The notes below the pieces were generated by a model. That model saw only the letters and a list, made by a program, of their open reading frames with translations. It was not told where the DNA came from and did no database searches. 64,000 nt of DNA from Ignavibacteria bacterium (lineage in GTDB: Bacteria; Bacteroidota; Ignavibacteria; Kapaibacteriales; UBA961): contig CANLII010000002.1 of assembly GCA_947491315.1 (NCBI GenBank), positions 124,001 to 188,000 on the forward strand, read 5' to 3'. Below, piece by piece: positions 37,792 to 50,835 of the stretch. The position numbers and the translations under genes are program-made. Positions within the stretch are counted from its first letter, which is position 1. Each line of letters begins with the position of its first letter.

Positions 37792-38448
37792 TCAGTAAAA
37801 TTCAGGGGTTAATAGAAGTTCGTGCAATTCTTGAACACTTGCACATATATGTTTTGGACCAGCAGATTGTATCTCTTCTTCAGTACCATATCCATAAGCA
37901 CAAGCAATCGATTGCATGGAATGTGCATGCGCTCCCTTGATATCATGCTCCTTATCACCAATCATCCAAGATTCAAATGGATTAATGGTATGTTTTTCCA
38001 ATACATGACCAATAATGGAGGTTTTATCAGCTCTTGATGCATCTGCAGTAGCACCACAAATATCAATAAAATGATGATCAAGTTTCATGAATTGTAAAAT
38101 TTTCCCTGCATACAAATCAGGTTTGGCAGTAGCAACAAACAATCTTGCATTCATCTCGGCGAGTGTTTGAATCAATTCTGGTATGCCTTCATAGAGTTTT
38201 TGATCATAGATTCCATGAACAGAATAATACTCTCGATAGAGTCTGACTGCTTCTTTTGTGGTATCAGCATCAAAATGACAATATGCCGGAAATGACTCCC
38301 AAAGCGGTGGACCAAGAAATTTTCGCAGCGTTTCCATTGATAAGGGATCAGCACCTAATGCATCAAGTGCATAATTGACGGAATTGATAATCCCGGGAGC
38401 CGAATCGGACAATGTGCCGTCAAGATCAAAGAGAAGCGGTTTTTTCAA
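37792..38448 (-). CDS. HAD-family phosphatase (phosphoglycolate phosphatase-like)
   Basis: A 218-residue HAD subfamily IA hydrolase. The nucleophile motif FDLDGTLSDSA is at residues 7-17, motif II VATAKP near 105, and IGDKEHDI near 165 is the metal-binding motif IV. The substrate may be phosphoglycolate or a nucleotide. Translation seems to start at TTG 38448, as the catalytic motif is only eight codons in and no ATG lies close. That TTG overlaps the nadK stop as TTGA. Confidence 0.87.
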   Translation of the reverse strand: MKKPLLFDLDGTLSDSAPGIINSVNYALDALGADPLSMETLRKFLGPPLWESFPAYCHFDADTTKEAVRLYREYYSVHGIYDQKLYEGIPELIQTLAEMNARLFVATAKPDLYAGKILQFMKLDHHFIDICGATADASRADKTSIIGHVLEKHTINPFESWMIGDKEHDIKGAHAHSMQSIACAYGYGTEEEIQSAGPKHICASVQELHELLLTPEFY

Positions 38449-39335
38449 TTGTGAACTTCCGAAGATTGATCAAAGGCGGTAGGATCCACTGACCACAATA
38501 GTTTATTTCGGAGAAGATCAAAAAATGTACTTTCGGCATGCTTCACTATCTTCACTTGTGTAGCTGATCTTTTGATCAACACTTGATCATTCTTGCCAAT
38601 CGGTATTTCAATCTGACCATCAGCAACAAGACGCGCTTCTGATCCCGAGGAATCCACTTTCACGGTAAGCTCCAAAGTGTCCGGAATGATGAGAGGTCTC
38701 ATTGTGAGCGAATGCGGAGAAATCGGAGTGATGCATAATACAGAAGATGATGGTGTGATGAGGGGTCCGCCACATGACAATGAGTATGCCGTGGATCCGG
38801 TCGGCGTGGCAATGATCACTCCATCGGCACGGTAGGAAGCAATCAAATATTGCTGATGAGCAATATGCGTGGTTATGAGTCTGGATGAATCCCTTTTCTC
38901 AAATACAATTTCATTGAATGCATGAATGATTTTTCCATGCACATGTGCTTCGAGGAGTGTTCTATCCACAATGCGATAATTCCCTGATAGCACATCTTGC
39001 AATGCTCTGGGTAATTCATCCACATTGAACTCAGCCAAGAAGCCAAGTCTTCCAACATTCACACCCATGATTGGCAAATCTGAACCTGAAAACAAGCGTG
39101 CAGCAGTCAGCATCGTGCCATCACCACCGAATGCAATCACCAGATCTGCAAAGCGTTCAAAATCAATTGCTTGGAATTGCTGAACTAAGACCTGAAGATG
39201 AGCAGGAAATAGTGGAAAGATTGAGGGTTCCACACAGCATTCAGCACCTAAATCAATGAGAATCTCAGCGGCATTGATTGCTGATTGCACAGAGCCGGAT
39301 CGATCAGGATTGACATATAATCCAATGGATTTCAT
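38445..39335 (-). CDS. nadK: NAD kinase
   Basis: It makes NADP from NAD and ATP. The diagnostic GGDGTMLTAARLF is at residues ~70-82, with FNEIVFEK and DGVIIATPTGSTAYSLSCGGP later. 296 residues is normal. The gene overlaps its neighbours on both sides (ATGA with the DUF1844 gene, TTGA with the HAD gene), so it sits inside a tightly coupled operon. Confidence 0.95.
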   Translation of the reverse strand: MKSIGLYVNPDRSGSVQSAINAAEILIDLGAECCVEPSIFPLFPAHLQVLVQQFQAIDFERFADLVIAFGGDGTMLTAARLFSGSDLPIMGVNVGRLGFLAEFNVDELPRALQDVLSGNYRIVDRTLLEAHVHGKIIHAFNEIVFEKRDSSRLITTHIAHQQYLIASYRADGVIIATPTGSTAYSLSCGGPLITPSSSVLCITPISPHSLTMRPLIIPDTLELTVKVDSSGSEARLVADGQIEIPIGKNDQVLIKRSATQVKIVKHAESTFFDLLRNKLLWSVDPTAFDQSSEVHN

Positions 39336-39616
39336 GACAATGTGCCGGATGAATCCGGTGTTGAAGATGCCGGTGCGGAATTATCCGACACATAATTCAA
39401 ACGCAGATCTCGAAGCACATTGTCAAGCAATCGAGCTTCGGTATCTGTCACATTCCCTTTTGTCTTTTCTTGTAAAACTGCCAGTAGATCGATAACGAAT
39501 GATGCTTGTTCGAGATTCTTCTCGGTTTTACCAGTCATTGGATGAGCAATTTTACCTAGCGCGGTAAAACCCTCCATTTGGAACATTTGTATAATTCCAG
39601 AGAAATCTATAGTCAT
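39332..39616 (-). CDS. DUF1844 family protein
   Basis: A 94-residue cytoplasmic protein. The core FQMEGFTALGKIAHPMTGKTEKNLEQASFVIDLL...KTKGNVTDTEARLL matches the DUF1844 family, whose function is unknown. ATG 39616 is preferred because GGAG lies seven bases upstream; the longer frame would begin at a TTG at 39628. The C-terminal 20 residues are Ser/Pro-rich and probably disordered. It is 12 bases after the PFK homologue and overlaps nadK by four bases. Confidence 0.85.
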   Translation of the reverse strand: MTIDFSGIIQMFQMEGFTALGKIAHPMTGKTEKNLEQASFVIDLLAVLQEKTKGNVTDTEARLLDNVLRDLRLNYVSDNSAPASSTPDSSGTLS

Positions 39617-39628
39617 TTCAAACTCCAA

Positions 39629-40588
39629 TCAAGCAAGAATATCAGATAAGGAAACCAAATAATCCGGGAGAATTTTCTTTCGTTCAAATGTCATCGGAAG
39701 CGGTGTATGATGTATCGCTCCATTGACAATACCAACCATCGAATTAGTATTACCATCTTTCATGGCTTCGACTGCGGCTTGTCCCAAACGACTTGCAAGG
39801 ATGCGATCTGCAACGGATGGCTTCCCGCCTTTTTGCATCGGACCAAGTACCGACACAATGCTGTCGATATTATAGGAATCTTTCAAAATTTTCGCGAGAT
39901 CGAATCCACCACCAACTTCATCACCCTCACCAATCACAATGATATAGCGCTTATTGTCATTTCTCGTGGAAATTCTTCTATACAAATCAGGGATATTGGT
40001 AATTGTTTCGGGTATGGCAATATATTCAGCACCACAACCGATACCTACATTAATAGCAATATATCCTGCCTGACTTCCCATCACTTCGATGATGAAGACA
40101 TTTCCCATGGAATCCGCAGTATCACGAATTTTATCAATTGCATCAGCGGCCGTGTTTAATGCTGAATCATAACCGATGGTAGTATCGGTGCCATATACAT
40201 CATTATCGATAATAGCACCAACGCCGACAACCGGAAAGTTATGTTCTTTATTCATCAAATGAAGGTATTTCAATGACCAAGGACCACCCGAGGCTATCAA
40301 TCCTTCAATCCCGGCTTTTCTCATATTTTCAACGGCTTGCTTGCGAACATGTTCTTCTTCTATGGGAAGATACTTGCTTGTTTTGAGTATTGTTCCACCC
40401 GTACCAACGATATTGGCGGTATCCGCCCGGCCGAGAGTGCGAAATTGTTCTTCAATGATTCCTTTATAACCATATGAAATACCAATGACTTCAATTTTCT
40501 TGGTTTCTGCTGTTCTTATGACAGATCTGATAAGTGCATTCATGCCCGGTGCATCTGTGCCACTTGTGAGGAGTCCGATTCTTTTCAT
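39629..40588 (-). CDS. Phosphofructokinase-like protein with altered active site
   Basis: 319 residues with the PfkA fold: MKRIGLLTSGTDAPGMN at the start, IIDNDVYGTDTTIGYDSALNT, IEVMGSQAGYIA, and VADRILASRLG. Compared from memory with E. coli PfkA, many substrate contacts differ: G11 to Thr11, R72 to Lys72, GGDGS (101-105) to GGPWS, R162 to Asn163, R171 to Ser172, R243 to Ile244, H249 to Pro250 and R252 to Lys253. The catalytic IDND pair is kept. Normal fructose-6-phosphate kinase activity is therefore doubtful; a regulatory or different-substrate role is likelier. It is first in the operon with DUF1844, nadK, a HAD phosphatase and a prenyl synthase. Confidence 0.85.
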   Translation of the reverse strand: MKRIGLLTSGTDAPGMNALIRSVIRTAETKKIEVIGISYGYKGIIEEQFRTLGRADTANIVGTGGTILKTSKYLPIEEEHVRKQAVENMRKAGIEGLIASGGPWSLKYLHLMNKEHNFPVVGVGAIIDNDVYGTDTTIGYDSALNTAADAIDKIRDTADSMGNVFIIEVMGSQAGYIAINVGIGCGAEYIAIPETITNIPDLYRRISTRNDNKRYIIVIGEGDEVGGGFDLAKILKDSYNIDSIVSVLGPMQKGGKPSVADRILASRLGQAAVEAMKDGNTNSMVGIVNGAIHHTPLPMTFERKKILPDYLVSLSDILA

Positions 40589-41194: not shown

Positions 41195-43567
41195 ATGAGA
41201 AAACTCATGACATTTTTTCTCGCCATGATATGTATTTCAGTGGGATTTTCCGTAGAAAACATGGCACAATCCATCATCATATCAAAAGATGGAATCAATC
41301 AAGAAGCCGATACGCTCAATTTTGGTGCAAGAACAGAGAATAATCCAAAAGTGGATTCTTTTCTTGTTGTCAATAATACGAAAGACACACTCTATATACC
41401 CTATGATCCTCTCTATTTAAACCGTGTCAATGCAATTCCTTTTGATAATTCTTTTGCAGAATTTGAACTTGACACGAATCAACAAAGGACTCGCCCATTC
41501 ATAATACTACCTCAAAGCATATTTGCCATCAAAGTCAATTTCAAAGTAGATACTGCCGATAAAGGAACAGGATTCGAAGCAGATCAATCTGTGAAAAAAG
41601 GTAGAATATTCATTAATCTTTGCAAGATTCAGGATACCTCGACTATTGTTGCTTCCGACACTATCCATCTTTTTGGTGATCGCACAACCAGATTCATGAA
41701 ACCGAGTAATTCGGTCATTGTATTTGATACCATGTATATCGGTGCCACAAAAAAGGGTACTCTTACTGTCTATAATGGAACAGATTCAAAAGAATTGAAA
41801 CTTGATATAAAACAAAATAATATGAGCAATGTGAATATCCGTCCTTCAGATATTGGTTCATTTACATTGGCACCTAATGATAAACGAGAAATTCCAATAG
41901 AATATACTGCTAGAACTCTTGCAGATTCGCTTGTGAAGAATGCATTGACCATCACTTCAACTCCCGGTTCAAAATCTCAAAGCGAGGTATCGAATATCGA
42001 CCTACAAACATTTGTGGCATTTCAGAAGTTTGAGATAGATTCCTCAGTAACTTTAAATGTTAATCTCAGTAAAAAATTAATAATACCGAATCGTAATAGT
42101 GTCTTCTTATTAGATACAGTAGCAACAGGTAGTTTTTCAAATAACTATGAAATTGCATTGAGAAATAATGGTAATATTCAATTGAATATAGATAGTGTCA
42201 TTGTTTCAGGGGATACCAATGGATTCTTGTTTGATTACTCAACATTCAGAAAAGATCTTTCTCCTGATAGGCCAACCTCATTTTTCGTAATATTTAATCC
42301 TAAAAAACAACCAGGAAATTGGAGTGCAACGCTTTCATTCTATACCGATTTACGAAGAAGATTCCAGAATCAACAATTAGATTCATCACTTGAAATCATA
42401 CAAGTGACAATTAATGGTATTGCAAAAGCGGCAAGGCCAGAACTAACATCGTTACCTGATACTTGTTCAATAATTTATGTCTCTCAAAAAGCTTCTGTTG
42501 AATGTAATCCCGGATGTAACAGAACCTTCATCATGAAAAATAATGGTGATGCAGAGTTAAAAATTGATTCGGTTGTGTTTGCAAATAATTCTGTTGAGTT
42601 TATTGCTGACAATCGAAAGACAACAATTAAACCTGGCGAAACTGATACCATCAAAGTATTGCTGAAACCAGGAAGTCAAGTCGGCAGTTTTACAAACACA
42701 TTGATGGTGTACACCAATGCCGGAAATTTCACAAATGACATTTCTTTCACTTCTGTTTCAACATCCGCAATCATCACGATTGATACCATCGAAGCATCTC
42801 CCGGCGAAGTGATCTCGATACCAATAAAAGTGCAATCCGATCAATTGATCAGAGCCCAGTATTTTTTGGCAGATTTAGTAATTCCATATGAATCAAGAAA
42901 GGCAGTTCGTTATGAAGGATTGGACTTAAATTCATCAGCAGCCGAAAAAGCAGATCCTAAAATATTAGATACCTTGATTAAGACAAATGATACAAACAAG
43001 AGTGAGCAGTTGATTTCATTTGGATCAAAAGATGTTGAATTATATAACTTCAATTCAAGTCTCAAGACCCTCGGGACATTAAAGTTCACCTATTTTTTAA
43101 ATGAATCTACCGTCACTGAAATAATCATTAATAACTATAAATTAGGTGCTGTATTTGCGTCAACAAATACACCTAAAACAAAGGTTTTGTGTGATGAATT
43201 CTTTGATGTTACATATCCTTCCAAAATCATCATCAAAGCAAAAGACAATTCATTTTGTGCGGATCAAGAGACATTGGAATCATTTTTTGCCGATATACGC
43301 AGTAAAAAAATCTCTTTTACGGCTATGATGCCGATGTCAGGAGAGAGTGTGGTGGAAATTCAACACTTCATTCCTGAATCATTGCATGCTGACATTTCAT
43401 TATATGCAGTTACCGGTGAAAAGGTTGAAACCATATTCTCAGGCATTGCACCCACTGAATTAACCAAAAGACGGCATCCACTCACAAATCTACCTAGGGG
43501 TGTGTACTATTGTGAATTGAGCGCCGGGGCATTTCGCAAGACAATTCCCATTGTCATAACGCAATGA
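41195..43567 (+). CDS. Large T9SS-exported beta-domain (choice-of-anchor-like) protein
   Basis: 790 residues. A signal peptide ends near AQS (~residue 26). The body contains repeated Ig-like beta domains of the choice-of-anchor/ASPM-SPD2-Hydin type: DTLNFGARTENNPKVDSF, TMYIGATKKGTLTVYN, then NNGDAELKIDSVVF. Residues ~535-670 resemble a cohesin-like module (GEVISIPIKVQS). The C-terminus is a T9SS-like sorting domain (ISLYAVTGEKVETIF, LPRGVYYCELSAG). Function unknown, probably surface-attached. AAAGGG lies 7 bases before the ATG. It may be co-transcribed with the RidA gene. Confidence 0.8.
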   Translation: MRKLMTFFLAMICISVGFSVENMAQSIIISKDGINQEADTLNFGARTENNPKVDSFLVVNNTKDTLYIPYDPLYLNRVNAIPFDNSFAEFELDTNQQRTRPFIILPQSIFAIKVNFKVDTADKGTGFEADQSVKKGRIFINLCKIQDTSTIVASDTIHLFGDRTTRFMKPSNSVIVFDTMYIGATKKGTLTVYNGTDSKELKLDIKQNNMSNVNIRPSDIGSFTLAPNDKREIPIEYTARTLADSLVKNALTITSTPGSKSQSEVSNIDLQTFVAFQKFEIDSSVTLNVNLSKKLIIPNRNSVFLLDTVATGSFSNNYEIALRNNGNIQLNIDSVIVSGDTNGFLFDYSTFRKDLSPDRPTSFFVIFNPKKQPGNWSATLSFYTDLRRRFQNQQLDSSLEIIQVTINGIAKAARPELTSLPDTCSIIYVSQKASVECNPGCNRTFIMKNNGDAELKIDSVVFANNSVEFIADNRKTTIKPGETDTIKVLLKPGSQVGSFTNTLMVYTNAGNFTNDISFTSVSTSAIITIDTIEASPGEVISIPIKVQSDQLIRAQYFLADLVIPYESRKAVRYEGLDLNSSAAEKADPKILDTLIKTNDTNKSEQLISFGSKDVELYNFNSSLKTLGTLKFTYFLNESTVTEIIINNYKLGAVFASTNTPKTKVLCDEFFDVTYPSKIIIKAKDNSFCADQETLESFFADIRSKKISFTAMMPMSGESVVEIQHFIPESLHADISLYAVTGEKVETIFSGIAPTELTKRRHPLTNLPRGVYYCELSAGAFRKTIPIVITQ

Positions 43568-43809: not shown

Positions 43810-46800
43810 ATGCAATTCCAAATCTTTTCATTTCGCTTCTTCCCTATGGCTTTATGTCTGCTCATTGCAGGCATAGAAGTAGAGGCATATGCAATTAGAT
43901 TTGAGCATAGTGATCTTCTACTCGCCTATGTTCGTGCTTCGATGATGATGGGTCAGCCCATTGCAGATGAACAAGATGAACTCATTTCACAAGACTCCAC
44001 TTCCACTTCCCCATTGCCACTTTCTGGGATTTTTTCTCCCAAAAGACAATATCGCGGAGAATATGGGAAGGATCAATATCGCAAGGATCCACTTCCTCCC
44101 GGATATTCCATTGCATTGCAATTTGATTCAACACTTTCTGAAGTACGAAAAACTGAAAGTTTCAATGATATACCCACCACGAGTGGAAATATCATATCAA
44201 TGGATGATTATCTCGCATTGAGAAGAGAGAAAGAACGGGGTCGTTTATGGGATTCTCTCGTCAGACAATATGATCTCAAAAAAGCAATGTCATCATCTGA
44301 TATTGCAAGTGTGCTCAGTCAAGCAACCGGAATATCAATACCTATACCGCCAAATCCGCTTCTCAGTATTTTTGGTAAACCAGAAATCAGCATCAATGTA
44401 GCAGGTGATGTCAATGTCCGCGCAGGCTGGCAATGGGATTCACAAAAGATGGGTACAGCTTCGCCATTTGGTCAAACGCAATCAGGACCATTCTTCACGC
44501 AGGATATCAATCTGAATGTAACAGGTAGAATTGGTGACAAATTACGCCTCGGCGTGGATTGGAATACCCGTCAGCAATTTGATTTGAACAATCGTTTCAA
44601 TATTGGTTTTTCTGGTAATGAAGATGATATATTCAAAAGAGTAGAATTGGGTAATGTGCAATTCCCTATTCCTTCTACACTTATTGGTGGAAGTCAGGCA
44701 TTATTCGGTATTCGTACGGATTTTCAATTCGGTCCGCTGTACTTAAAGACAATTGCTTCTCAAAGAAGAGGTGAATCACGCAGGGTGAATGTATCAGGCG
44801 GTGGAACAATGCGCCAACCATTCCGCATGAATGCCTATGATTATGACAAAAAGAATTTCTTTTTGGATACTGCCTATTTTGGGATTTGGGACAATTACTA
44901 TAAAGCACAGATTCCCCTTTTGCAGAATACGCCTGAATCCAGAAAAAATCGCGTGAAATTGTTAGAGGTTTATGAATCAACTGTTGATGTGCAATTGGCC
45001 GCGCAAGCAGCTGAGGGTATTGCAATCGACACGCTCTCTCCAATCAACCGAGTAGGGGCATTGGCGCAATTCTATCCCAAATCCTATGTATCTATTCCTC
45101 CCGTTGCAGGCTTCACAGAAAGAGGAAAATTTCTTAAGCTCGATCAAAGAGCATATCAATTAGATGAGAATCTTGGTCGCCTGACTATCACATCACTCAA
45201 ATCGGATCGCTCCTATGCCGTGGCATATCGCATTGAGGGTGAAACAAGTGAACCCGGCGATGATTTGGACTATGGGACAATTTCCAATACCGTACAACCA
45301 ACTGATACATTGATTCTAAAGCTTGTTTATCGACCCAATATGCAACCGGGATTTCCGGTGATATGGAAGAGACAGATGCGAAATATTTTCAATATCGGAC
45401 AAAGTAATGTCAGTCTTGCCGATTTGAAACTCAATGTGTGGTATCTCCGAGCCAATAATGACTCTTCCGATGTACTTGAAGGTTCGAGCGATAAAGTGGT
45501 CACCATTTTGGGTGTTGACCGCGTGAATAATTCCGATGGTACTGCAAGACCCGATGGTTTATTCGATCTTGGAAGTCCTCAACAGCAGAATCAACAAAAT
45601 CAAATGCAACAAACCGGTAATACGGGCATGGGTGGTACAACAACTCCCCCTTCGCAATTACCCGCGCAATATCAACAGCAAGGTTCACCATTTTTCAATC
45701 CCATTCGTGGTGAAATCATTTTCCCCGAACGCGAGCCATTCGATTCTGGTCTCGTGAAATATTTTGCAAAAGTTGGTTCCCCTCAAGCGGCCAATCGTTT
45801 TCGTTATACGCAGGTATATAAAGAAATCGTTGAGATTGCCAAGCGCGCGACCGATCGCGATCGGTTTATCATTACCGGCGAAGCAACGGGTATGATGAAT
45901 ACAGGTGGAGGTAAGATTTCACTCGGTGCATTCAATCTTGCACCTGGAAGCGTTCGCGTAAATCTTGATGGCGCGCCACTTAAAGAAAATGTGGACTATT
46001 ATGTTGAATATTTCACAGGACAAGTGACGCTTACAAATCCACGAGCATCACTTCCCAATGCAAATCTCAGCATCGAATATGAACAGAATGATCTATTTAA
46101 TCTTGCAACAAGAACTCTCGTAGGTTTGCGTGCCGACATGCAAGCATTCAAAAGAAGAAATGGTTCGGCGAATGTTGGTATGACATTCATGATGTTCGAT
46201 CAGGCGATGCTGTTTGATCGCGTGCGAGTCAATGAAGAACCCGTATCAAATACCATGATTGGTTTTGACGGAAACATGAATCTCAATTTGGATTTTCTTA
46301 CCAAAGCACTTGATGCGATGCCCTTTTATGATACAAAGGCACCATCATCACTCACGCTTCGTGGGGAAATTGCGGCGATGCTTCCTACGCCGAATAAACG
46401 AACATCCGATATCCCATCCGACAATGGAGCTGCGGTTGCCTATGTGGATGATTTTGAAGGTGCTCAGCGTAGTATTTCACTTGGTCTCACTCCGCAACAA
46501 TGGTCGCATTGCGCAGTTCCTGATGACCCTACACTTTGGGATGATCCACTTTCAAAAACGGGTAATTTTTATAGAGCAAAGACTTTTTGGTATCAAAACT
46601 TCATTGGTGCAACTCCGCTATTGGAAGTATATCCCAATCGTGATACGAGAGGGCGTCTCACCACCATCAATGATCTCAAGATTCGATTCGAAGGAAAGGA
46701 ACGCGGGATTTACAATCGCAATCCACAATTCATCGACAAATTGAACCCAACCTATGATTCACTGTTTCATGATCAATATCTTGCGAATATTCAGCCAAGA

Positions 46801-49800
46801 GTTTGGGGTGGAATTCAGAGATTATTTTCAACCTTCAATACAAACTTTGACACCGAGAATATAGATTTCTTAGAGATGGTTGTTCAATTTGGTCCTGACA
46901 TCAAAGAGACCGAAACTGAGATGTGGGTAGACATTGGACAAATCAGTGAAGACATCATTCCAAACAATACATTGAATACCGAGGACGGCATCACACAGGC
47001 CAGTCCGATTCCGAATAATATCATTGATATTGGAGAAGATGTTGGTATTGATGGTTTGAGTGATGAACAAGAAAAAAGTTCTGCAAATACGAATGAATCA
47101 TATCCATTTCCATTGAATCAAGAAGCAGACCCGGCTCGTGACAACTATTTCTTTGATTTTGCAGCAAGCAGAGATCGTCAAGGACCGGAGCAATTCAAGT
47201 TTTATAATAATTTTGAGAATAATGCTCAGTTATCTGAATCGGGTCAATTCCCCGATCGCGAAATTCTGAACAATAATAATGGCCAGACAATCATGCTGGA
47301 CAATAGTTATTACAGTTATAAAATCAATTTGGACCGCGACCCCAGAAGAAATCCGCAGATCATTGGTACTGGAAATGCGAATAATCCCACTGAAAAGCAA
47401 TGGTTTTTTTATCGTATTCCACTGCGTAGACCAACGCGAGTGGTAGGAAATCCAACATTTGCAAATCTTCAGTATATCCGTATTTGGTTTAAAGGTCAAC
47501 CCATCACCGTGAATATTGCCGAATGGAAATTTACCGGTGGACAATGGATTCGCAATAGTGGATTACAACCGAATGTCACACCCGAAGACAGCATCTTGAG
47601 CGTACAATTCGTGAATGTGGAAGAGAATAGTCGCCTTCCTGATTTGTACACTTTGCCACCGGGCGTTCAAAGACCAAGACAAATCAATAATCCAGATCCT
47701 CTGCAGGATGTTCGTTTGAATGAGCAATCGCTTTCAATAAGTGTGAAAAATCTGCCATCGGGTCAAGATCGCATGGCTGTTCGACTTATGCGAAATCTGG
47801 ATGTGTTTTATTATAAGAAAATGAAATTCTTCCTACATGGCGATGGTTCTATGCCGGCACTCATTCCTTTTGGTGCGGCATCAAAAGGGCAAGCATTTAT
47901 TCGATTCGGAATAGATTCGGCAAATTACTATGAAGTGCGTCGACCTATCATTCAAGGTTGGAGAGACATTGAAGTCGAAGTTGCCAAATTAACAGCACTC
48001 AAAGAAAAGCGCTCTCAGCAAGCCGCAACTTTGCAAATACAGGAAGATATCACGACTCGTTTCATTGATTCTTCCACACAATTCGATCCCGGATTTTCCA
48101 TTCCGATTGAAACACAATATGTGATTAAGGGGAATCCAATTCTCACGCGTATTCAATTCATAGGATTCGGGATTGCCAATCCGACTTCAGGTTCATTCCC
48201 TGAAGATCTATCAACAACCATGTGGGTGAATGAACTTCGACTCATCGACCCGGAAAGTTCCGTTGACTGGGCCGGGATCGGTTCCGCAGAACTCAAATTG
48301 GCGGATTTGGGTACTATCAATGCCACATATAATCAAACAAATCCGAATTTTCACAGACTCGAAGAACGATTCGGGAATCGTAATCAAACCCTGAACTGGA
48401 ATGTGCAGATGCAAGGTACGCTCGAAAAGCTCTTGCCAAAAGAACTCAAGGAAATGCGTATTCCGATTTCCTATTCACATGGTGAAGTTGTAGAGACACC
48501 AATCTTTGCCGCACAAAATGATGTGGGAATAGAGCAGGCGGCACAAGCGGCTTATAATGCCGAATTAACAAGAACAAAAGGTAATATCAGCGAGGCTAAT
48601 CGCGTGAGTGATTCAGTGCGTCGTCGCTCTCAAACCATACGCGTGCAAGATGCATGGGCAATCACAGGATTCAGATTCGGCATACCGATCGATCATTGGC
48701 TCATCAAAGAAACCATCAATAAAATCAATATCAGTTATGATTATTCACAGACCTTCGAGCGCTCCCCCGTTGCGGAAGAACGCTTCAGATGGAATTGGAG
48801 AATGAAAGCTGATTATAATGTGCAATTCCCTTCTTCAATATCTGCAAAACCAATTTCTTGGATCGGAGACATTCCAATTCTTGGGGCATATAAAGATTGG
48901 AAAATCTTCTTCCTGCCTTCAAGTTTTTCGACTTCCGTGCAATTTCAGAGATCAAGAGCAACGGAAAAGTCTCGTTTTTTGACATTTCCAAGTCCAGTCA
49001 TCAGAGATTTTGCCGCCACAAGACAAGCTCAATTCTCATGGAGATTTTCCGAAAATGGCTTGCTGAGTCCGATTCTAGACTATTCATTCACGACAGGTGC
49101 AACGCTTGTTCCGCTTGAACTTGATGAAAATGGTCTTCAAAGAGAAGGCAGCGACTTATTTCGAAGGGTCATTGGCCAAGGAAATGGACTACTCAATTTC
49201 GGCACGAATACGAATCATAATCAAGTTGTCACAATAAATTTCAAACCTCGTTTTCCGGACATTGGAGGTTTGCATAATTTCTTTGACAATACGGGTTCAT
49301 TCTCAACAACCTATACATGGCGCAATCCACTTCAACAGGATACGACTGTTCGAGATGCTGTGAAGCAGGCATCATTCCAGAATACGATTCGCCTCACTTC
49401 AAATCTTAGATTGAAGAGTATGACCGATAAATGGTGGGGTATATCCGCGCAGAAAGGTTCTGACTCCACAAGTGGATTTTTGGGGACGGTCGGAAGAATT
49501 TTTAAAACGATATTCTTTGATTATGAAACGCTCACATTGAATTTCAGACAAGAGAATTCAGCAATCAATCAAGGTGTCCTGGGCGAAACGGGTATGTCGA
49601 ATTTCTGGCGTAGTGCCGTTGGACTCGATGAAACACAGGATTTTGGTCCAAGCACCGCTTATCAGCTTGGTTTGGTGCCTCAACCACATGGAGGATTTCG
49701 ATTGATTCCATCAGGCTCATTTCCATTTTTCAAAGTAGAAACCTTTGATGGAAAAAGGCCGAAGAATTCAATTTTGCCTGATAATTTCTTTCAAAAATCA

Positions 49801-50835
49801 GAATTAGAATTCCGTACGAATCGTCCTCTTTGGACTGGTGCTACGCTTGACATTAATTGGAAATCAGGTTTTGGATTTAACAAAAATCAATTAGATTCAA
49901 CCGACATTGAGGGTAATTCAAGATTCACGAATATCGTGGTGACCTCGAATTTCAATCGCACATATCTTTCATTGCCAAAATTCTTGATGTTTGCTCCTTT
50001 GAATAATTCTATTGAGCGAGTCATTGACTTATACAATGAGCGCAAACCCGGAATCATAGCTCAGTTCCCCACTGATACTTTACGACAAAATCAAGCATTA
50101 CGCGATGCAGTATCTGAATCATTCGAAAAAGGACTCGAAACTCGCATCTTCGCTTTCCTTCCTGATGCATTACAAAAGATTTTACCTGCAATGAATTGGA
50201 CATTGCGTTGGGATGGAGTTGAAAAACTTCCAATCTTTGCCGGTCTTGCAAAACGCGTGACACTTGAGCATGCATATAAATCCACCTATCAAGAAAGTAC
50301 GACGAATACTGATAATGGCATCATTCCGGGATCACAACAGATTCAATCCGGATTCGAACCTTTGATCGGCATGCAATTGACATTCGATGAATCCAAATTG
50401 AAAGGATTACTGACAGGATCTTTACGATTCACCACAAAATCGAATTATTCTTTGCAACCCACATCATCCATTATACAAGGTGAATCCATCACGGATTTAA
50501 CCATGCAAGCAAATTATAATCGTAGAGGATTCAAGACTTCATTCTTTGGTTTGACATTCGACAATGAACTTGAATTTGCATTTCTGGCTACATTCAAGAG
50601 ATCTCTCAGAAGCACATACAATCTATTACAATTGTCAGATCAGGAAGGTCAACGATTGGATGGAAATACGCAGATCATTCTTGAACCATCTGCGAGATAC
50701 GGCATTTCACAAAGAGTGACCGCAAGACTGTTCATGCGCTATGAAACCACGATCAATGAAGGTGCTGCAGCACCAGGTTTCAGTCGATATCAATTCGGTT
50801 TGGATATCCGCATTTCGGTTTCGGGAGGACGATAA
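43810..50835 (+). CDS. sprA: T9SS outer-membrane translocon SprA/Sov
   Basis: A 2341-residue giant that forms the outer-membrane channel of the type IX secretion system, through which folded cargo with C-terminal sorting domains leaves the cell. A signal peptide (~1-26) is followed by the SprA N-terminal region: ISINVAGDVNVRAGWQWDSQ, then LNVTGRIGDKLRLGVDWNTRQQFDLNNRFNIGFSGNEDDIFKRVELGNV. Paired beta-strand repeats continue to the end, and the protein closes with an amphipathic strand (YQFGLDIRISVSGG). A Gln/Asn-rich linker lies near residues 590-615. Five likely cargo genes are in the window. The gene has its own promoter and a GT9 gene starts five bases after its stop. Confidence 0.95.
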   Translation: MQFQIFSFRFFPMALCLLIAGIEVEAYAIRFEHSDLLLAYVRASMMMGQPIADEQDELISQDSTSTSPLPLSGIFSPKRQYRGEYGKDQYRKDPLPPGYSIALQFDSTLSEVRKTESFNDIPTTSGNIISMDDYLALRREKERGRLWDSLVRQYDLKKAMSSSDIASVLSQATGISIPIPPNPLLSIFGKPEISINVAGDVNVRAGWQWDSQKMGTASPFGQTQSGPFFTQDINLNVTGRIGDKLRLGVDWNTRQQFDLNNRFNIGFSGNEDDIFKRVELGNVQFPIPSTLIGGSQALFGIRTDFQFGPLYLKTIASQRRGESRRVNVSGGGTMRQPFRMNAYDYDKKNFFLDTAYFGIWDNYYKAQIPLLQNTPESRKNRVKLLEVYESTVDVQLAAQAAEGIAIDTLSPINRVGALAQFYPKSYVSIPPVAGFTERGKFLKLDQRAYQLDENLGRLTITSLKSDRSYAVAYRIEGETSEPGDDLDYGTISNTVQPTDTLILKLVYRPNMQPGFPVIWKRQMRNIFNIGQSNVSLADLKLNVWYLRANNDSSDVLEGSSDKVVTILGVDRVNNSDGTARPDGLFDLGSPQQQNQQNQMQQTGNTGMGGTTTPPSQLPAQYQQQGSPFFNPIRGEIIFPEREPFDSGLVKYFAKVGSPQAANRFRYTQVYKEIVEIAKRATDRDRFIITGEATGMMNTGGGKISLGAFNLAPGSVRVNLDGAPLKENVDYYVEYFTGQVTLTNPRASLPNANLSIEYEQNDLFNLATRTLVGLRADMQAFKRRNGSANVGMTFMMFDQAMLFDRVRVNEEPVSNTMIGFDGNMNLNLDFLTKALDAMPFYDTKAPSSLTLRGEIAAMLPTPNKRTSDIPSDNGAAVAYVDDFEGAQRSISLGLTPQQWSHCAVPDDPTLWDDPLSKTGNFYRAKTFWYQNFIGATPLLEVYPNRDTRGRLTTINDLKIRFEGKERGIYNRNPQFIDKLNPTYDSLFHDQYLANIQPRVWGGIQRLFSTFNTNFDTENIDFLEMVVQFGPDIKETETEMWVDIGQISEDIIPNNTLNTEDGITQASPIPNNIIDIGEDVGIDGLSDEQEKSSANTNESYPFPLNQEADPARDNYFFDFAASRDRQGPEQFKFYNNFENNAQLSESGQFPDREILNNNNGQTIMLDNSYYSYKINLDRDPRRNPQIIGTGNANNPTEKQWFFYRIPLRRPTRVVGNPTFANLQYIRIWFKGQPITVNIAEWKFTGGQWIRNSGLQPNVTPEDSILSVQFVNVEENSRLPDLYTLPPGVQRPRQINNPDPLQDVRLNEQSLSISVKNLPSGQDRMAVRLMRNLDVFYYKKMKFFLHGDGSMPALIPFGAASKGQAFIRFGIDSANYYEVRRPIIQGWRDIEVEVAKLTALKEKRSQQAATLQIQEDITTRFIDSSTQFDPGFSIPIETQYVIKGNPILTRIQFIGFGIANPTSGSFPEDLSTTMWVNELRLIDPESSVDWAGIGSAELKLADLGTINATYNQTNPNFHRLEERFGNRNQTLNWNVQMQGTLEKLLPKELKEMRIPISYSHGEVVETPIFAAQNDVGIEQAAQAAYNAELTRTKGNISEANRVSDSVRRRSQTIRVQDAWAITGFRFGIPIDHWLIKETINKINISYDYSQTFERSPVAEERFRWNWRMKADYNVQFPSSISAKPISWIGDIPILGAYKDWKIFFLPSSFSTSVQFQRSRATEKSRFLTFPSPVIRDFAATRQAQFSWRFSENGLLSPILDYSFTTGATLVPLELDENGLQREGSDLFRRVIGQGNGLLNFGTNTNHNQVVTINFKPRFPDIGGLHNFFDNTGSFSTTYTWRNPLQQDTTVRDAVKQASFQNTIRLTSNLRLKSMTDKWWGISAQKGSDSTSGFLGTVGRIFKTIFFDYETLTLNFRQENSAINQGVLGETGMSNFWRSAVGLDETQDFGPSTAYQLGLVPQPHGGFRLIPSGSFPFFKVETFDGKRPKNSILPDNFFQKSELEFRTNRPLWTGATLDINWKSGFGFNKNQLDSTDIEGNSRFTNIVVTSNFNRTYLSLPKFLMFAPLNNSIERVIDLYNERKPGIIAQFPTDTLRQNQALRDAVSESFEKGLETRIFAFLPDALQKILPAMNWTLRWDGVEKLPIFAGLAKRVTLEHAYKSTYQESTTNTDNGIIPGSQQIQSGFEPLIGMQLTFDESKLKGLLTGSLRFTTKSNYSLQPTSSIIQGESITDLTMQANYNRRGFKTSFFGLTFDNELEFAFLATFKRSLRSTYNLLQLSDQEGQRLDGNTQIILEPSARYGISQRVTARLFMRYETTINEGAAAPGFSRYQFGLDIRISVSGGR

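Follow-up and report, generated by a model that had tools for sequence, protein, structure and literature searches.

The 319-aa product of a pfkA gene in the 64,000-nucleotide stretch of DNA analysed here (the window) has lost most of the residues that bind the two substrates of phosphofructokinase (PFK), and it almost certainly lacks PFK activity. With moderate confidence, we propose that this protein, hereafter pseudo-PfkA, is a pseudo-phosphofructokinase, retained after displacement of the enzyme as an effector-binding regulatory protein. Judged by its sequence it would qualify as a pseudoenzyme, since substrate residues present in its active-type orthologues are gone, the fold is kept and the gene is under purifying selection.

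Substrate sites, effector site and fold

The open reading frame encodes a full-length member of PF00365 (E 1.3e-87) that aligns from end to end with the solved bacterial PFKs in the PDB alignment. An AlphaFold (AF2) model of pseudo-PfkA, with 30 orthologues as input, gave a mean pLDDT of 91.7 and matched Geobacillus PFK (4i36/6pfk) with a TM-score of 0.95 and an rmsd of about 1.6 Å. The original prediction, that the PfkA scaffold and the catalytic IDND were kept while the ATP and fructose-6-phosphate (F6P) sites were rewritten, was borne out by the alignment with Geobacillus and E. coli PfkA: every substitution it listed is confirmed, neither substrate site survives and the fold is intact. An offset register was rejected as the source of the differences; no offset was found near any altered site, and the solved PFKs and about 130 homologues align every site in register. 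The E. coli PfkA sequence and the Geobacillus reference from the PDB alignment yielded the same residue mapping. Identical site residues were found in separately assembled genomes of the genus, and the substitutions are therefore no sequencing artefact. The features are listed in the table below.

On the donor side, the substitutions (numbered as in E. coli/Geobacillus) are G11T, R72K, D103P, G104W, G108Y and T125I. The published donor motifs are GGDGSxxG for ATP, GGDGSxxI for ADP and GG(D/E)D(S/T) for PPi, and G104 and G108 form the adenine cleft (PMC11609450). The motif of pseudo-PfkA, GGPWSLKY, fits none of these signatures: together with T11 and K72 it departs from the ATP type (GGDGSxxG with G11 and R72), it lacks the ADP signature, which sits instead in the paralogue P0002 described below, and its GGPWS does not match the PPi pattern. 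PPi- or ADP-dependent PFK was accordingly ruled out by the donor motif. W104 and Y108 are predicted to place bulky aromatic side chains at both glycines of the adenine cleft. Pseudo-PfkA scored 313.4 bits against the NCBIfam equivalog model TIGR02482 (PFKA_ATP), below the cut-off of 371.35, which a canonical orthologue (L014) cleared with 374.6. The broader NCBI subfamily model PRK03202 was passed, so annotation pipelines would be expected to label the gene 6-phosphofructokinase, which it almost certainly is not.

The sugar side has the changes R162N, R171S, R243I, H249P and R252K. All four ligands of the F6P phosphate, R162, R243, H249 and R252, are replaced (by N, I, P and K, respectively). 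D127, N128, D129, M169, G170 and E222 are unchanged in pseudo-PfkA, and D127, D129, M169, G170 and E222 are invariant across the altered members described below.

The effector site tells a different story from the active site. In E. coli PFK, R21, R25, R154 and E187 make contact with ADP and PEP (PMC12889660). Pseudo-PfkA has all of the effector residues R21, R25, R54, N59, R154, G185 and E187, a point that was absent from the original prediction. For seven members of the pseudo-PfkA genus we scored the columns with 90% or higher conservation among 25 canonical orthologues, and found that 6 of 16 active-site columns, 7 of 7 effector columns and 87 of 111 other columns were kept (Fisher, p 0.0075 for active-site against effector columns and p 0.0014 for active-site against other columns). 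When a wider set of 96 homologues was used instead, the number of qualifying effector columns fell to four; all were kept, and the difference between active-site and effector columns was not significant (p 0.087). The retention of the effector site could partly reflect packing of the dimer interface rather than ligand binding.

Table. Position of pseudo-PfkA, its substrate-site and effector-site residues and the adjoining operon genes in the window
Feature	Coordinates	Strand	Remark
Pseudo-PfkA, 319 aa	39629..40588	minus	vertical orthologue of the order's ATP-type PfkA
T11 for invariant G11, donor site	40556..40558	minus	alignment
R21...R25, effector-site arginines retained	40514..40528	minus	role from PMC12889660
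R54...N59, effector-site positions retained (family state)	40412..40429	minus	alignment
GGPWS, residues 101-105, for GGDGT/S	40274..40288	minus	Y108 also replaces G108
IDND, residues 127-130, retained	40199..40210	minus	D127/N128/D129 of E. coli; alignment
R155 (R154 position), effector phosphate ligand retained	40124..40126	minus	role from PMC12889660
N163 (R162 position), F6P phosphate ligand lost	40100..40102	minus	role from PMC12203962
S172 (R171 position)	40073..40075	minus	alignment
G186...E188 (G185...E187 positions), effector Mg/ligand contacts retained	40025..40033	minus	role from PMC12889660
I244 (R243 position)	39857..39859	minus	alignment
P250...K253 (H249...R252 positions), F6P phosphate ligands lost	39830..39841	minus	alignment
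DUF1844 protein, next operon gene	39332..39628	minus	
NAD kinase, third gene of the ancestral operon	38445..39335	minus	
HAD-family hydrolase, downstream in members of the pseudo-PfkA genus	37792..38448	minus	

Orthology, graded change and selection across the order

The gene order pfkA-DUF1844-nadK surrounds most canonical PfkAs in other families of the order, whose proteins are 48-54% identical to pseudo-PfkA. The shared operon identifies pseudo-PfkA as the vertically inherited pfkA, and a new paralogue arising by duplication was rejected by synteny and the tree. The suggestion that pseudo-PfkA might be a binding partner of the neighbouring NAD kinase (NADK) or DUF1844 protein found no support, as the operon is ancestral and common to canonical PfkAs, and the genes do not always travel together: G012 lacks DUF1844 yet keeps the pfkA orthologue, and G007 lacks both pfkA and DUF1844. 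At the G007 locus (L206 809-2352) a RidA-like gene and nadK are adjacent, with pfkA and DUF1844 both missing, and at the G012 locus (L203) DUF1844 alone is gone. Homology of the DUF1844 protein begins at about residue 5, and the ATG near 39616 may thus be its true start. Elsewhere in the window, by eye, a 2341-aa ORF (43810-50835) resembles the large SprA-kind type IX secretion proteins, and the 790-aa protein beside it (41195-43567) has a C-terminus like a sorting domain.

We searched 123 genomes of the order (Kapabacteria) and found the orthologue in 73, with a canonical site in 62 and an altered one in 11. The 62 canonical proteins hold G11, R72, G104, R162, H249 and R252, residues that also hardly vary among about 130 other homologues. 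The 11 altered orthologues form a single clade in the tree (support 98/94), and scatter was therefore rejected as an explanation for the graded loss. Mild changes (E103 and Q162) are found in G019, which belongs to another family. Genus g4 has T11, Q72 and S171 and keeps GGDGT and the F6P phosphate ligands, and G012 has A11, H72, GDATT and K162. Two members of the pseudo-PfkA genus have GGTGT or GGIGL together with N162, S171, A249 and K252, and GGPWS is found in five, which form the subclade (support 100/99) that a PFK tree had been proposed to reveal. Some 70 additional homologues, drawn from Bacteroidota and other groups, have a canonical site apart from scattered single changes; two from Bacteroidales (L089 and L090) have I or L in place of R162 in an otherwise canonical PfkA. 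The whole gene is lost in G007, G008 and G010, genomes from the family of pseudo-PfkA, which indicates that the role of pseudo-PfkA is not universal in the family.

Within the genus, pseudo-PfkA evolved with dN/dS of 0.008-0.043. The individual pairs gave 0.043 for G000-G003 (dS 0.32), 0.026 for G000-G005 (dS 0.76), 0.008 for G002-G006 (dS 0.90, 99.4% identical) and 0.038 for G004-G001 (dS 0.43); saturated pairs, those with dS above 1, were left out as evidence. NADK gave 0.042-0.056 in comparable pairs with dS below 1, placing pseudo-PfkA at or below NADK. Identity to the G002 proteins was 92% for pseudo-PfkA, 90% for ThrRS, 90% for P0003, 82% for NADK and 82% for the ADP-type PFK. Pseudo-PfkA is thus under constraint as tight as that on a tRNA synthetase and changes more slowly than NADK or the ADP-type PFK. 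These results give strong backing to the original claim that the gene is conserved for a retained role other than that of a PFK.

Other phosphofructokinases and the possible roles of pseudo-PfkA

The original prediction had proposed a look for a second, canonical pfkA in the same genome. Two further PFK paralogues (P0002 and P0003), which it did not mention, do exist beside pseudo-PfkA (DISPLACEMENT), one of the ADP type with GGDGSxxI and the other of a GGNGS type. P0002, a 370-aa protein on contig C4 (L001 1348-2460, G000), carries the ADP-dependent signature (GGDGSMEI and K124) and has none of the effector arginines R25, R54 and R154; GGDG(S/T)xxI was present in all ten ADP-type PFKs that we checked. 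An ADP-type PFK occurs in 28 of the 123 genomes of the order. This spread and the P0002 motif suggest that glycolysis may commonly be ADP-dependent in Kapabacteria. The ADP-type PFK was found in 9 of 11 genomes with an altered pfkA and in 1 of 62 with a canonical one (Fisher 5.5e-9, a value that depends on phylogeny, as the genomes are essentially one clade), and since they are not phylogenetically independent we treat the co-occurrence as one well-resolved case, not nine. The two altered genomes without it are fragmented drafts. Family f8 and the genomes G007, G008 and G010 carry the ADP-type PFK and have lost pfkA. In the draft genome G011 (G011:C292:4727-5625, L191) the ADP-type PFK lies in two overlapping open frames, a frameshift or an assembly error. 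P0003, on contig C19 (L003 1345-2352, G000), has GGNGSxxA, S125 and Y249. Its type occurs in 56 genomes of the order, is at least 60% conserved and is present in every genome of the pseudo-PfkA family; family f6 and genus g7 of f4 yielded this type alone of the three.

We propose that the starting point was an old, vertically inherited ATP-type pfkA in family OPB56 (uncultured lake bacteria) of the Kapabacteria order. A second PFK of the ADP-dependent type (GGDGSxxI, K124) would have taken over the glycolytic job, after which the old PfkA may have lost its nucleotide site and F6P-phosphate site stepwise. Further decay would then have been halted, with strong purifying selection freezing the fold and the effector site. 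The resulting non-catalytic PfkA-fold protein may use the effector site in the dimer interface to bind ADP, PEP or a comparable phosphorylated metabolite, and may relay the signal to a partner, for which the cell's other PFKs would be the most natural candidates. Of the roles first suggested, a regulator is the one we favour because what survived is the ADP/PEP effector site. The sequence analysis identified no partner, and a direct complex with one of the other PFKs is doubtful. It is also conceivable, if improbable, that the stand-alone protein is an ADP/PEP sensor controlling the ADP-dependent PFK or the other paralogue in trans; the ADP-type replacement having no classical effector site, the old protein would have been kept solely for its allosteric site.

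A related possibility is that pseudo-PfkA acts as a regulatory subunit, forming a hetero-oligomer with P0002 or P0003 and supplying the effector site in trans. The conserved oligomer scaffold of PfkA would allow this, R25, R54 and R154 of the effector site are missing from the ADP-type PFK, and there is precedent in eukaryotic PFKs, which are regulated via dead halves, and in yeast PFKs, which are hetero-oligomeric (PMC12203962). However, the paralogues are merely about 30-38% identical to pseudo-PfkA, either of them occurs in other genomes without it, and R162 and R243, which complete the active site of the neighbouring subunit, are lost, so that pseudo-PfkA would be unable to complement a catalytic interface; we consider such a subunit unlikely. 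Somewhat less likely again is a different phosphotransferase, in which IDND and E222 would act with another donor, or on another sugar phosphate or a non-phosphorylated sugar. The invariance of D127, D129, M169, G170 and E222 in the altered members and the strong selection speak for it. The retention of D127, D129 and E222 exceeds what a dead enzyme would strictly require; it is the main fact that our regulatory model leaves unexplained, and it keeps this alternative alive. The original suggestion of a different kinase is nevertheless weakened by the donor loop, which conforms to no known donor motif and is unfixed even within the genus (GGPWS, GGTGT, GGIGL), a variation that counts against a new fixed catalytic use of the loop; in addition, W104 and Y108 stand at the cleft glycines and the four F6P-phosphate ligands are changed.

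That pseudo-PfkA is still an active PFK with unusual yet functional site residues would agree with its kept catalytic base, its high conservation and its old place in the operon, but the near-invariant G11, R72, G104, R162, H249 and R252 have all changed and the genome has a second, intact PFK, making this explanation very improbable. We give slightly less credence still to a functionless relic in decay. Loss of the gene in the sister genera (G007, G008, G010) and the more erratic site of G012 (GDATT) are what decay might produce; yet the low dN/dS, maintained despite synonymous divergence, and the lack of stop codons in all altered copies led us to reject a decaying relic for the genus.

Significance and relation to known systems

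Phosphofructokinase is a textbook allosteric enzyme. One order appears to display, in extant genomes, the stages of an enzyme swap, from a canonical PfkA through mildly altered forms to a protein with neither substrate site that is nonetheless strongly selected and has an intact effector pocket. Should ADP or PEP still bind at the effector site, the allosteric sensing and the catalysis would have been split between proteins, and, if this is true, the graded series would permit testing how the two became separated. In the literature (open-licence papers) we found no stand-alone bacterial pseudo-PFK, nor an account of the protein under Kapabacteria/OPB56 PFK or DUF1844.

Pseudo-PfkA shares its length, fold, catalytic Asp and effector residues with the bacterial ATP-dependent PfkAs of E. 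coli, Geobacillus and Staphylococcus, but differs from them in having neither the nucleotide site nor the F6P-phosphate site and in falling below the PFKA_ATP equivalog cut-off. It occupies the same locus as the canonical pfkA genes of its order, whereas the 62 canonical proteins keep the key residues and nearly always occur without an ADP-type PFK. The ADP-dependent PFK-A of cyanobacteria and alphaproteobacteria has its counterpart in P0002, which carries GGDGSxxI (PMC11609450), and not in pseudo-PfkA. Regulatory dead PFK units are already known from eukaryotes, where they are fused to an active half. The C-terminal halves of eukaryotic PFK-1 are, like pseudo-PfkA, units of the PFK fold in which catalysis is lost, and they have a regulatory use (PMC12203962). 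In those halves, however, the old F6P pocket has become a sugar-binding effector site, while pseudo-PfkA is encoded by a stand-alone gene, has lost the F6P pocket and has kept the classical bacterial effector site.
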